Source: Pseudomonas sp. FP1742
GTDB taxonomy: Bacteria; Pseudomonadota; Gammaproteobacteria; Pseudomonadales; Pseudomonadaceae
DNA: 64,000 bases
Direction of reading: 5' to 3'
NCBI RefSeq assembly: GCF_030687145.1
Contig: NZ_CP117460.1
Coordinates: 6,138,001 to 6,202,000 of the forward strand
Shown piece after piece: positions 24,257 through 46,713 of the stretch (position 1 is its first letter; each line of letters starts with the position of its first letter). The translations under genes were made by a program, and so were the position numbers. The notes under the pieces are model-generated. The model saw only the letters and a program-made list of their open reading frames with translations, ran no database searches and was not told where the DNA came from.

Positions 24257-24925
24257 ATGATCGATCTCGCAACCTGGAACCTCAGCGTTCCTGTCGGCAG
24301 CCCGCCGTACACCGTCGAAACAGCCAAGCTGGTAGACGGCTTCAAGGATCAATACTTCCACTCCGACACCGGTACTTTATTTTTCTGGTCCCCGGTCACC
24401 GGCTCCAAAACCGAAAACGCGATCTACCCGCGCACCGAACTGCGCGAAACCTACAGCAATGGCACGCTGAAAAACTGGTACTACCCCGACGCAGACAACT
24501 TCCTGCGTGCCACCCTCTCGGTCAGCCAGGTGCCCAGTTCGGGCAAGATCGTCATTGGCCAGATCCACGCCTTCAACAGCCAGAAGCCCATGGTGAAGGT
24601 CGAGTATCAATACAAGGACTACAGCGCAACCGGCAACATCGTCGCCAAAGTCCGCATGCACCCCGACGACGACACCGCCCGGGTCATCACCATCGCCACC
24701 GGCGTGAAACTCAATCAGGAATTCTCCTACCTCATCCACCTCAGCCGGGGCGGTGCATTGGGCATCAGTGCGGCGGGGTACCAGTGGGATACCGACATCA
24801 GCACGATGTGGCGTGATAAGCCGCTGTACTTCAAGGCCGGGGTTTATGTGCAGGACAACACCGGGTACACCACTGAAGGCGGGGAAGTGACGTTCAGCAA
24901 GCTGGATATCGATCACGATACGTAA
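24257..24925 (+). CDS. Polysaccharide lyase family 7 alginate lyase
   Basis: 222 aa, single PL7 domain. All three signature blocks are present: RTELR (59-63), QIH (102-104) and YFKAGVYVQ (191-199), giving the catalytic Arg, Gln, His and Tyr of beta-elimination. The QIH form is associated with guluronate-containing substrates, QVH with polymannuronate (family knowledge). No signal peptide is visible, as in the P. aeruginosa homologue PA1167. GTGGAAG precedes ATG 24257. It diverges from the c-di-GMP gene, and c-di-GMP stimulates alginate synthesis, so a shared role in exopolysaccharide turnover is plausible inference. Confidence 0.88.
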   Translation: MIDLATWNLSVPVGSPPYTVETAKLVDGFKDQYFHSDTGTLFFWSPVTGSKTENAIYPRTELRETYSNGTLKNWYYPDADNFLRATLSVSQVPSSGKIVIGQIHAFNSQKPMVKVEYQYKDYSATGNIVAKVRMHPDDDTARVITIATGVKLNQEFSYLIHLSRGGALGISAAGYQWDTDISTMWRDKPLYFKAGVYVQDNTGYTTEGGEVTFSKLDIDHDT

Positions 24926-24954
24926 TCCCTGAAAGACCGCAGGAATCCACCCTT

Positions 24955-24984
24955 TATGGCGAGGGAGCTTGCTCCCTCGCCATA
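24955..24984 (+). terminator. Perfect inverted repeat after the alginate lyase gene
   Basis: Arms TATGGCGAGGGAGC and GCTCCCTCGCCATA (14 bp) with a TT loop, 29 bp after the stop. It is followed by only a few T residues, so it may be a repeat-family hairpin that doubles as a 3' end. Confidence 0.6.
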
Positions 24985-25034
24985 GGTTCTTTGTGTCCAA
25001 CGCCATCTCTTCTCTGATTGGCATCAGGCCTCAC

Positions 25035-25052
25035 TTAAACGCCCACGTTTAA
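25035..25052. promoter_or_regulatory. Small AT-rich inverted repeat upstream of the DUF6124 leader
   Basis: TTAAACG (25035-25041) and CGTTTAA (25046-25052) around CCCA. It lies 20 bp before a 26-codon open frame and may be a promoter-proximal operator or an RNA hairpin. Confidence 0.35.
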
Positions 25053-25071
25053 AGACACTCAGCGTTACTTC

Positions 25072-25152
25072 ATGAGGCCTACAACGGCTTGCGTCACCGC
25101 CTACAGGTACGCCAGAATCCGCCGGCTTGTGCGTCTGGGAGGCCATCGGTAA
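25072..25152 (+). CDS. Possible leader peptide of 26 codons (weak)
   Basis: Short open frame beginning MRPTTACVTAYRY and ending RLGGHR, rich in Arg (7 of 26). It ends 11 bases before the structured leader of the DUF6124 gene. No convincing Shine-Dalgarno is present. Position and charge would suit a translated leader peptide, but it may equally be a chance frame or the 5' part of a non-coding RNA. Included because the whole 24985-25384 stretch is otherwise gene-free. Confidence 0.25.
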   Translation: MRPTTACVTAYRYARIRRLVRLGGHR

Positions 25153-25162
25153 CTTGATTCGT

Positions 25163-25384
25163 GTCACTGATTCGCAGTGATCGGGTTTAGTAGCCCGTGG
25201 TTTCGAGCTTGGTGCACAAGCATCTGTCAGTCAGGGATTTCGATTCCTGCGCTTGATGGTAACTGTGCGCAGGGCACCTTCGGGTGCGCCGGCTTGCTCG
25301 AAACCCCGGTCTACTAACCTGCGTACAGTTGCCTCCACTTTGATTAGTAGCCAGAGAGGGGCACTCCAATCAGGTTTCGAGCAA
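25163..25384 (+). ncRNA. Candidate structured cis-regulatory leader of the DUF6124 gene
   Basis: A multibranched fold is visible. TTAGTAG (25187-25193), CCG (25195-25197) and GGTTTCGAGC (25199-25208) pair with GCTCGAAACC (25296-25305), CGG (25307-25309) and CTACTAA (25311-25317): 20 base pairs with two single mismatches. Inside lie hairpins 25232-25249, 25247-25272 and GCACC-TTCG-GGTGC (25274-25287). The 3' part repeats the left strand: TTAGTAG at 25344-25350 and GGTTTCGAGC at 25373-25382, two bases before ATG 25385. The central strand can therefore pair leftwards or with the start-codon region, but not both. I recall no named RNA family for this; ligand or trigger unknown. Confidence 0.6.
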
Positions 25385-25747
25385 ATGACTAAATCAACGC
25401 CGCATCCGCCGGTCACAGACCCGGCATCCCCCTACGAATCCCCCGATTCAAAAAAATTCCACGAAGCCGCCGAGCGCGCCCTCGACCATTACCTCAACCC
25501 GGCCGCCAAAATCATGGCCACCACCCACGAACCCGAGCCCATGTACCTCGCCAATCCGAAGTACAACACCGAAGCGCTGCTGGCCAACGCCAGCGAAACA
25601 CTCGGCTCGGCCACCACCATGCTCAACAATTTCGCAGCATTGCTGGAGACCTCCCATCGCAAGACCCTGTTGGGCATTGCGCAAGTGGTCATGCTCGGTG
25701 AACTGGCGGTGAATCAAGCGTTGGATCATGTCGAATTGAAGGAGTAA
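25385..25747 (+). CDS. DUF6124-family small protein
   Basis: 120 aa, a small protein family seen mainly in Pseudomonas, of unknown function. The N-terminus has a conserved SPYESPDSKKFHEAAERALDHYL segment; the C-terminal half (LLANASETLGSATTMLNNFAALLE through VVMLGELAVNQALDHVE) looks like an amphipathic helical hairpin. No signal peptide or membrane segment. ATG 25385 is chosen although the ribosome site is weak; the frame stays open upstream to 25253, but that stretch is explained by the conserved RNA pairing. Expression may be controlled by the leader. Function unknown. Confidence 0.75.
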   Translation: MTKSTPHPPVTDPASPYESPDSKKFHEAAERALDHYLNPAAKIMATTHEPEPMYLANPKYNTEALLANASETLGSATTMLNNFAALLETSHRKTLLGIAQVVMLGELAVNQALDHVELKE

Positions 25748-25790
25748 TCGCGGCTCGGTTGGTGCAAGGTGAGCAAACTTTCTTCCAATG

Positions 25791-25853
25791 AAAAAACCCG
25801 CCTCTCGGCGGGTTTCTTATCAACGCAGCTTAACGCTCGGGCTTAGTTAACCT
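25791..25853. repeat. Left copy of a 63-bp fba-3'-end-like repeat flanking hipBA
   Basis: 63 bp matching 27426-27488 in length and at both ends: the first 24 bases (terminator hairpin) and the last 14 (GGCTTAGTTAACCT, containing the stop codon) are identical, with a diverged middle. On the minus strand it reads as a gene end (VN-stop) plus terminator, with an open remnant (VVFKSTAIGDTGIEVN) running back to 25900. Confidence 0.6.
25794..25815. terminator. Terminator hairpin downstream of the DUF6124 gene
   Basis: AAACCCGCC-TCTC-GGCGGGTTT. The longer T-run is on the minus strand, matching the fba terminator 1.6 kb away, of which this is a copy. Confidence 0.75.
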
Positions 25854-25900
25854 CGATCCCCGTGTCGCCGATGGCCGTGGACTTAAATACGACGTAGATA

Positions 25901-25924
25901 AAATGTTGCGTATACGCTACATTT
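25901..25924. promoter_or_regulatory. Probable HipB operator of hipBA
   Basis: 24-bp near-perfect palindrome with arms AAATGTTGCGTA and TACGCTACATTT (one mismatch pair), 27 bp before the hipB start. The position fits autorepression by HipB. Confidence 0.6.
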
Positions 25925-25950
25925 AGCTATAAATGTTACTGAAGCGGAAC

Positions 25951-26202
25951 ATGGATTATTTTCTGTTGATCAGCCGTCTTGGCAACCAAATACGCGAAAA
26001 ACGTATAAATCGCGGTCTGACGCAAGCACAGCTTGCCGACCTCGCGGGGCTGACACGATACAAAGTCATCGCAGTAGAGAAAGGTACTCTGTCTGTCGGC
26101 ATGATCGCCTATGCGCGCGTCCTTGGCGCTCTGGATTGTGAGCTTGCTGTCGTTCCAGCTGCTATGCCGACCCTTGAAGAGCTTGGGGATTTATTCGAAT
26201 GA
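25951..26202 (+). CDS. hipB: HipB-type antitoxin (XRE-family repressor)
   Basis: 83 aa, single XRE/Cro helix-turn-helix: LGNQIREKRINRGLTQAQLADLAGLTRYKVIAVEKG spans the DNA-binding helices. It overlaps hipA by four bases (ATGA at 26199), typical of type II toxin-antitoxin operons, where HipB binds and neutralises HipA and represses the promoter. ATG 25951 (MDYFLLIS) follows GAAGCGGA; ATG 25933 would add six residues (MLLKRN) but has no ribosome site. The region is visibly more AT-rich than its neighbours and bounded by duplicated sequence, suggesting acquisition. Confidence 0.85.
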   Translation: MDYFLLISRLGNQIREKRINRGLTQAQLADLAGLTRYKVIAVEKGTLSVGMIAYARVLGALDCELAVVPAAMPTLEELGDLFE

Positions 26203-27398
26203 AGATGTCCTCTCTCAAAGTCAGCACGCCTGAGGGGCGTAGCGGCAGGCTTTTCAGCGATGCCGAAGACTTCACATTCCGTTATCACGACGATGCATCG
26301 CCAGAAATGGCTATCAGCTTGTCGATGCCAGTAAGGCATAACGAGTTTCGTCGGCGCGAACTCCATCCTGTTTTTCAGATGAATCTGCCGGAAGGCTATG
26401 TATTGGAGCAACTGCGCAATCGATTGGCCAAGACCGTGAATGTCGATCCGATGCTTTTGCTGGCGCTTTCCGGCAGCACTTCGCCCATTGGCAGGGTGCA
26501 AGTGCGGTCTGAAACGGTTGACGCCTTGCTGGAGGAGCAACAATTTCCGGGGGAGAAACTCGAAGAGATTCTGACATGGGACGGCACGGAGGATATCTTC
26601 GCCGACATTCTTGATCGCTACATCCTGCGTGCCGGCATTTCCGGCGTTCAACCCAAAGTGTTGGTACCGGAACGCCTGGAAACCGGATTATCACGGGTGA
26701 CATCGAAAACCTCGGACCTGATTATCAAAAGTGGCCGAGACGAATTTCCCGGTCTGGCAATCAACGAGTTCCTTTGCATGTCCATTGCGAAGGAGGCCGG
26801 TATTCCCGTTCCGCCGTTTTACCTTTCCGATAATGCCAAGCTGTTTGTCATGCGTCGCTTTGATCGCGACGACCAGCTCAACCCAATTGGATTTGAAGAC
26901 ATGGCGGTGTTGATGGGGCTATCGGCTAACCAGAAGTACAGCAAAAGCTATGCGGCAATCGCCAAGGCTATTCGCGTGTTCTGCCCGACTAAACATTTAC
27001 GCACCTCCCTTGATCAACTCTTCGATAGCGTTGCTCTGAGCTGTATTGTCGGGAATGGCGACGCTCATTTGAAAAACTTCGGATTGCTCTATTCCGATCC
27101 TACGCAACGCGATGCACACCTGGCGCCGGCCTACGACATCGTTAACACCACGGCCTATATTCCGGAAGATGTTTTGGCTTTGGATCTGGCGGGCAACAAG
27201 TCAATGTTTGCCTCGCGGCAAGGACTGCTTGAGTTTGCGCACACCTGTGAGATCGAGCGACCTCAGGAGCGCATTCAGCAATTGCTTGCCTCGGCTGAAG
27301 CAGTACTTGAACGCTATCCTGAGTATCGGGAACAGGCGCCTCATGTGGTCAGTGCCATTGAGCAAGCGGCAGCGCCATTTTCTATGACTTTTGGGTAG
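26199..27398 (+). CDS. hipA: HipA-family serine/threonine kinase toxin
   Basis: 399 aa. In E. coli, HipA phosphorylates glutamyl-tRNA synthetase GltX, causing growth arrest and persistence; the target here is not known. Seen: N-terminal HipA_N region (~1-110), glycine-rich loop GISGVQPKVLV, VMRRFDR, and the catalytic block GNGDAHLKNF (285-294) with Asp288 as presumed catalytic base, followed by PAYDIVNT carrying the metal-binding Asp. All key motifs are intact, so it is predicted active. It overlaps hipB and is convergent with fba. Confidence 0.9.
   Translation: MKMSSLKVSTPEGRSGRLFSDAEDFTFRYHDDASPEMAISLSMPVRHNEFRRRELHPVFQMNLPEGYVLEQLRNRLAKTVNVDPMLLLALSGSTSPIGRVQVRSETVDALLEEQQFPGEKLEEILTWDGTEDIFADILDRYILRAGISGVQPKVLVPERLETGLSRVTSKTSDLIIKSGRDEFPGLAINEFLCMSIAKEAGIPVPPFYLSDNAKLFVMRRFDRDDQLNPIGFEDMAVLMGLSANQKYSKSYAAIAKAIRVFCPTKHLRTSLDQLFDSVALSCIVGNGDAHLKNFGLLYSDPTQRDAHLAPAYDIVNTTAYIPEDVLALDLAGNKSMFASRQGLLEFAHTCEIERPQERIQQLLASAEAVLERYPEYREQAPHVVSAIEQAAAPFSMTFG

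Positions 27399-45143: not shown

Positions 45144-46713
<1,570 letters not shown>

Follow-up and report, generated by a model that had tools for sequence, protein, structure and literature searches.

The window, as we call the whole 64,000-nt stretch of Pseudomonas chromosome that was analyzed, contains a gene of the DUF6124 family preceded by a 222-nt leader (25163 to 25384). The leader carries a match to C4 antisense RNA, and strands that can pair with this RNA lie both upstream of it and at the start of the gene. The features of the locus are as follows.

25127–25132 (+): predicted -35 element TTGTGC, a weak sigma70-like pattern match
25150–25155 (+): predicted -10 element TAACTT (pattern match), spaced 17 nt from the -35 element, putative start at about 25162
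25163–25181 (+): 5' hairpin GTCACTG-loop-CAGTGAT, from the fold, within the RF03163 match at 25150–25201
25182–25197 (+): second hairpin, CGGGTTTAGTAGCCCG, containing the upstream linker-target copy TTAGTAG at 25187–25193
25199–25208 (+): upstream copy of the ribosome-binding-site (RBS) strand, GGTTTCGAGC, whose pairing with the loop covaries (30 loci)
25252–25339 (+): C4 antisense RNA (RF01695), from Rfam score and covariation among paralogues
25257–25273/25318–25334 (+): C4 P1 stem
25258–25260 (+): GGT in the 5' strand of P1, a putative site of RNase P cleavage, with the GGW motif type described for A. baumannii C4-like RNAs in the available text of PMC5320573
25274–25287 (+): C4 P2 hairpin with TTCG loop
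25288–25292/25306–25310 (+): C4 P3 stem
25293–25305 (+): P3 loop strand CTTGCTCGAAACC, target-recognition strand 1
25311–25317 (+): linker strand CTACTAA, target-recognition strand 2
25344–25350 (+): downstream linker target TTAGTAG, from cognate versus non-cognate linker pairing
25373–25384 (+): RBS strand GGTTTCGAGCAA, complement of the P3 loop, its last base adjoining the ATG
25385–25747 (+): gene for a 120-aa DUF6124 protein (PF19619, 66.5 bits; cut-off, 27), the presumed target

A sequence-only reading had described the leader as a switch in which one central strand can pair with either of two identical strands, and all the strands it described are present where it placed them. GGTTTCGAGC occurs at 25199–25208 and 25373–25382, with GCTCGAAACC between them at 25296–25305; a second element, TTAGTAGCC, occurs at 25187–25195 and 25344–25352, with CTACTAA at 25311–25317. 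The right-hand pairing is longer than had been claimed, with 12 of 12 bp formed between TTGCTCGAAACC (25294–25305) and GGTTTCGAGCAA (25373–25384), and it abuts the start codon, ending one base 5' of the ATG at 25385. The left stem has the two mismatches ascribed to it, and its exact extent is 22 nt, of which 20 (91%) are complementary (25187–25208 with 25296–25317). Three hairpins had been placed inside this stem; the minimum-energy fold has two loops there, one of them the TTCG loop (25279–25282). The fold of the 222-nt leader has a predicted energy of -91.8 kcal/mol, and none of 200 dinucleotide shuffles was as stable (z, -4.1). The repeat pattern of the leader is not a product of chance.

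The same reading knew of no named family with this architecture. However, an Rfam scan with Infernal identified C4 antisense RNA (RF01695) at 25252–25339 (70.5 bits; cut-off, 45; E, 2.8e-13), and the central strand is the P3 loop plus linker of that RNA. Processing by RNase P to about 77 nt is a trait of C4 antisense RNA, a type first found in phage P1, and the window's C4 has a candidate GG motif for such a step. With a covariance model built partly from the window C4 itself, this C4 scored 87.8 bits. The hairpins upstream have the right shape for the family of C4 target strands, RF03163 (c4-a1b1); their match at 25150–25201 scores 25.2 bits, below the gathering threshold of 46.7, and their pairing and covariation with the C4 were observed. 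No riboswitch or aptamer family matched 24500–26200 (Rfam, E up to 1), and the remaining weak Rfam matches in this region, P9 and Trp_leader, both lie beyond the gene. Of the two kinds of switch that had been proposed, the antisense type is thus supported, by the Rfam match and by covariation of both pairings, and the riboswitch is not, as no family matched.

The genome of this strain (6.67 Mb, one contig) contains 34 C4 matches, all above the cut-off. Across these paralogues, the window's included, 95.2% of stem cells were paired and 16 of 27 pairs showed double changes; P3 was the weakest helix, with 85.9% of cells paired. Double-change cells numbered 101, compared to 3 to 16 in slid versions of the stems, and none of 500 stem shuffles reached any of five covariation measures. 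Both the paired strands and the stems covary among paralogues, a check the sequence-only reading had called for. The scaffold, consisting of P1, P2, GG at the 5' side, and CCxCC at the 3' side, is kept as a unit across families and phages.

The C4 matches are associated with DUF6124 genes and with a regular start-codon spacing. The genome has 30 DUF6124 matches, comprising 26 near full length and four fragments, and 22 of the 34 C4s precede one of the 26 near-full-length genes (within 500 nt, same strand). The fetched flanks of the other four genes held no upstream C4 at E up to 1. An ATG follows 45 to 62 nt past the C4 in 32 of 34 cases, given an accepted range of 44 to 64 nt that was fixed after the first results were seen and given that ORFs of at least 20 aa were accepted (two have just 42 and 52 aa). 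The two exceptions are L042 and L045, which lack a gene at that distance. All three full DUF3077 domains of the genome lie within 800 nt 3' of a C4, in two cases with a short ORF or another gene in between. The L022 C4 precedes a Bro-N antirepressor-like gene (PHROG antirepressor matches), and the remaining C4-adjacent genes encode small proteins that matched none of the families scanned.

Some copies have features of their own. Downstream of the L017 C4 come an ORF of 52 aa, then a gene for DUF3077, then a long ORF whose sequence, by reading alone, resembles a phage primase; the first of these resembles, by eye, the ORF after the C4 of phage phiAH14b. L017 has the appearance of the circuit in mobile-element form. 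In several loci, among them L017, L158, L159, and L160, a GC-rich segment and then a T run (e.g., GGCGCTTTTTTT) lie between the upstream copy and the C4, directly 5' of the latter; they could form an attenuator and were not seen in the window's own copy.

We compared predicted pairing of each P3 loop with its own and with all other RBS strands in a 32 × 32 matrix of the own-genome modules. Cognate pairs averaged -14.24 kcal/mol versus -7.43 for non-cognate pairs, a difference reached by none of 10,000 permutations, and the own target ranked first for 21 of 32 loops alone and for 24 of 32 after adding the linker. The pairing of the linker with its downstream target was less specific (-11.43 versus -8.45; 0 of 10,000), with the own target first in 2 of 32. 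Over 111 modules (86 distinct pairs), from which L103 was left out as it lacks an in-frame start, the loop-RBS means were -12.88 and -6.06 (0 of 10,000), and 46 of 86 pairs ranked first. Among 13 pairs with near-identical scaffolds, the own pairing was stronger in seven, equal in five, and weaker in one; two compensatory changes separate L061 from its near-identical relatives. Orthogonality is incomplete, since the own target comes first for only part of the loops and since the loops of L018, L021, and the orphan L042 share TTCCTTGAT. Through this shared word, L042 might act in trans on L018 and L021.

The same relationship was found in a second genome, G049, with 55 C4 hits, of which the 52 over the cut-off were analyzed as in the own genome. 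An ORF of at least 40 aa starts 44 to 66 nt downstream in 47 of these 52, and across 47 distinct loops the cognate loop-RBS mean was -11.18 versus -5.90 (0 of 10,000 permutations; rank one in 27 of 47). Most modules in the two examined chromosomes thus appear, from predicted pairing, to recognize their own gene best. In the order sample, where 20 of the 34 listed places outside the own genome (16 genomes) were inspected, 18 of 20 had an ATG at 48 to 59 nt with loop-RBS energy of -7.0 or lower, a count favored by picking the ATG with the best energy. Four loci in phage records had an ATG at 46 to 58 nt and loop-RBS energies of -14.3 to -18.7; these include EU982300, a probable chromosomal flank, and phiAH14b, where the ORF is unannotated.

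The upstream copies of the targets match their own C4 as well. We located the upstream strand through its hairpin, which works in 30 of 32 own-genome modules, the same 30 of 32 in which a hairpin with a linker-pairing loop was detected. Pairing of the loop with the upstream copy averaged -10.87 kcal/mol for cognate versus -5.24 for non-cognate combinations (0 of 10,000 permutations), with the own copy first in 18 of 30; a cruder search over the full 110 nt gave a small gap (-15.34 versus -13.55). By eye, the upstream copy is conserved less than the RBS strand among the window's close relatives. The leader-paired fold (-91.8 kcal/mol) and a forced canonical C4 fold (-89.4 kcal/mol) are close in predicted energy, and the loop-RBS pairing (-19.6), if added, would favor the silenced state in this model. 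The idea of two states, in which the central strand pairs with either the upstream copy or the start region, therefore holds up as a prediction, with both pairings covarying and the fold energies near each other.

The best-scoring promoter-like site lies just 5' of the first hairpin in 23 of 34 own-genome loci (counted by eye); scores were weakly above those of shuffled upstream sequence (13.41 versus 12.69; standard deviation, 1.10), and the position alone was used. The predicted start near 25162 is upstream of 25320, beyond which a start had been held to count against the switch, although this start is a pattern match and a stricter scan found no promoter.

Duplicated modules show how the matching strands change. 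We took all 13 own-genome paralogue pairs with gene identity above 0.88 (range, 0.897 to 0.952). Mean identity was 0.93 in the gene, 0.84 in each half of the C4 scaffold, and 0.83 in the promoter and hairpins, and it fell to 0.56 in the loop, 0.58 in the upstream copy, and 0.66 in the RBS strand, where 358 unrelated pairs gave a baseline of 0.53, 0.54, and 0.59, respectively. The upstream segment was placed by a pattern that did not work for one pair, and its position looks wrong in two. Also below gene identity were the spacer before the C4 (0.63), the stretch after it (0.75), and the 8 nt that adjoin the ATG on its 5' side (0.71). That loop, RBS strand, and upstream copy become unrelated after duplication yet stay mutually matched points to selection for self-pairing.

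Specificity also changes at a single chromosomal slot. The window and 26 of 80 fetched loci share the window's left flank, and 24 of those 26 also share part of the right flank; among these 27 loci, nine variants of the loop occur, which fall into five groups (12, 7, 6, 1, and 1 members). The gene tree requires 13 changes of loop group, against a mean of 13.3 for shuffled labels, and the tree of the neighboring alginate lyase gene requires 14, against 13.0, so specificity clusters on neither the gene nor the flank tree. Many forks are poorly supported, but even when limited to well-supported branches the gene tree requires 6, 4, and 4 changes for the three larger groups. The simplest reading of these sequences would be that specificity is exchanged by recombination or gene conversion. 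Within genomes, an 8-nt loop word is shared by 1 of 561 pairs in the own genome (L018 and L021) and by 0 of 1,326 in G049; between the two genomes, 11 of 1,768 pairs share one and may be orthologues.

The arrangement is widespread in the genus. From Pseudomonas genomes, 80 of 301 loci similar to the window's protein were kept, a set biased to close relatives. A C4 lies upstream in all 80, and it is 45 to 55 nt before the ATG in 79, the exception being L103, with no in-frame ATG there. Across 59 genomes of the genus, the own included, a C4 was found at E ≤ 0.001 in at least 54 and over the cut-off in at least 53, for a total of at least 1,020 matches, with at least 54 in the richest genome and none in five. 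DUF6124 occurs in 47 of the 59, and the two counts correlate (Spearman, 0.88; kinship uncorrected). DUF6124 is not the sole target, because some genomes hold many C4s and few DUF6124 genes (G009, 38 versus 2; G025, 28 versus 3; G057, 22 versus 4).

In wider samples, C4 occurs in at least 19 of 144 other genomes in the order sample (at most six each) and in at least 6 of 184 in the class sample (one to three copies). All wide-search counts are lower bounds, because only the best 22 to 61 candidates were scored per genome under strict filters; the class search recovered 22 of the own genome's 34 C4s. By blastn, 7 records of Pseudomonas phages match the window's C4 and 31 match that of L017, and C4-like sequence also occurs in plasmids, with 29 records, of which 8 are from Pseudomonas.

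An AlphaFold2 model of the DUF6124 protein built from 72 sequences (mean pLDDT, 75.3; pTM, 0.47) has two long helices, 62–86 and 90–114, and an N-terminal part of low confidence. A fold search returned no PDB or viral match at E ≤ 0.001, a sequence search of the PDB no relative at E ≤ 1, and searches of six proteins each against NCBIfam and PADLOC no match at E ≤ 0.01. We rejected DUF6124 as typical phage or plasmid cargo, as it was found in one phage record and no plasmid (E ≤ 0.01). In that sole record, EU982300, the gene lies at 52–405, at the extreme end and beyond prtR, and the region is probably chromosomal flank. One protein, at G000:C1:2288432-2288629, matches both DUF6124 (7.9e-21) and DUF3077 (2.4e-6), which suggests that the two families may be related. 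L195 of G049 has a DUF6124-type N terminus (MIKVTPNPP...) followed by a region that reads like the Bro-N type; it is possibly a fusion linking the DUF6124 and Bro-N target families.

C4 was recorded in Proteobacteria by Weinberg in 2010 (PMC2864571, in the part available). In the immI operon of phage P1 (c4-icd-ant), C4 blocks ant, and Icd inhibits cell division, according to the accessible text of PMC8198154. The window's element shares with the C4 of P1 and P7 the P1/P2/P3 scaffold, the two recognition strands, the GG in the 5' strand of P1, and a target located at the ribosome-binding site of the gene that follows; target copies also lie upstream, with an RF03163 score below its threshold. 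It differs in being chromosomal, one of 34 in its genome, and placed before DUF6124 rather than icd and ant. A P1-type immI operon, with C4 followed by icd and an antirepressor gene, was accordingly rejected, the next gene in the window being DUF6124, and no phage genes were found among the four neighbors searched. Closer at hand are the Pseudomonas phages PAJU2, vB_Pae_CF3a, and phiAH14b, with a C4 52 to 58 nt before an ATG and loop-RBS energies of -16.0 to -18.7. In PAJU2 the C4 is 52 nt 5' of a Bro-N gene (-16.0), in vB_Pae_CF3a it precedes an unnamed 88-aa ORF and then a Rha-type regulator, and in phiAH14b it precedes an unannotated 52-aa ORF.

A single bacterial genome with multiple C4-like RNAs that vary in the loop is already known from A. 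baumannii AB5075, for which the available part of PMC5320573 describes 21 "Group 1" C4-like sRNAs and a GGW motif at the 5' ends of high-coverage regions. There, six lack the 5' region and, in that part of the text, targets are not named, whereas in Pseudomonas the target is adjacent and covaries. We found no report in the open-licence literature of a C4-DUF6124 link, a Pseudomonas C4 expansion, or specificity swapping. What is new is the scale of the Pseudomonas expansion.

Very likely, in our view, the DUF6124 message carries in its 5' leader a C4-type antisense RNA, 25252–25339, by which the gene is silenced. Transcription would start near 25162, from TTGTGC-17-TAACTT. The leader may then be cut at the base of P1, at GG 25258, freeing an RNA of about 80 nt, by analogy with P1/P7 and A. 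baumannii; the putative processing step by RNase P draws on the P1/P7 work cited in PMC5320573 and on the A. baumannii read patterns in the part of that report available. The P3 loop pairs with the 12 nt 5' of the ATG and the linker with TTAGTAG at 25344–25350, as the covariation shows, and together they would block ribosome entry. The upstream copies at 25187–25208 pair with the same C4 strands, again on the evidence of covariation, and the resulting competing fold would most likely delay or titrate the C4.

The reading nearest to this one is a purely cis-acting attenuator, with no separate RNA released and the message switching folds during transcription. The close energies of the two folds and the location of every pairing partner on a single transcript are consistent with it, but families and phages alike keep the C4 scaffold as one unit, two own-genome C4s have no gene at the usual spacing, and in the A. 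baumannii relatives the C4 part is separate and more abundant (PMC5320573, available text), so we regard it as improbable. We give a somewhat smaller chance to the proposal that the RNA mainly silences other genes or incoming elements in trans, leaving the pairing with its neighbor as a remnant. C4-like sequences do occur in Pseudomonas phages and plasmids, L042 and L045 are orphans, and phage or other bacterial transcripts were proposed as targets in A. baumannii (PMC5320573, in the same part), but loop, RBS strand, and upstream copy diverge after duplication and remain matched to one another. This proposal is not strictly exclusive of C4 self-silencing, and the probabilities of the readings need not sum to one.

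A riboswitch, in which a ligand or physical signal selects between the folds, could account for the competing folds with a TTCG hairpin inside. It is very unlikely, given that no riboswitch family matched the region and that it is the pairing strands that are least conserved between paralogues (loop, 0.56; gene, 0.93) while the C4 scaffold is conserved. The chance that the repeats reflect coding constraint on an N-terminal extension from 25253, or mere coincidence, is close to negligible. The frame from 25253 is open, but the C4-to-ATG distance ranges from 132 to 144 nt over the 27 syntenic loci, and the stem covariation and permutation tests stand against both forms of this explanation. Coding constraint, which the sequence-only reading had named as a possible source of the conservation, is excluded because this distance varies by single bases among close relatives.

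Self-silencing by C4 joins an unnamed leader and a family without an assigned function into one testable circuit and means that an RNA of phage immunity now exists in dozens of copies in many genomes of a single genus. Joint change of three distant strands between modules with similar gene and scaffold is unusual. The cause of loop diversification and the action of released DUF6124 proteins become testable questions, and the A. baumannii C4-like RNAs could be examined for a start codon some 50 nt downstream. We also entertain, with considerable doubt, that the DUF6124 modules are a self-silenced repertoire whose C4 loops of about 10 nt are under diversifying selection as in phage heteroimmunity, forming an RNA-specificity sensor or discrimination system. 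If so, each module would keep its protein off, and the set would act in discrimination rather than in ordinary gene control; a phage or plasmid that enters the cell with a C4 target or C4 RNA fitting one module would release or silence it.

Three further elements of the window were noted. A 15-pair palindrome, TTTATGGCGAGGGAGCTTGCTCCCTCGCCATAGG, lies at 24953–24986, 3' of the alginate lyase gene, and is REP-like or a terminator. An SAH riboswitch aptamer (RF01057) is present at 45182–45280 (+), with 67.6 bits (cut-off, 37). Just downstream of the DUF6124 gene, at 25933–27398 (+), is a hipBA-type pair, an HTH gene followed by a HipA-like gene (PF13657, PF07804), and at the same slot in other genomes this stretch matches in some loci but not in the rest.
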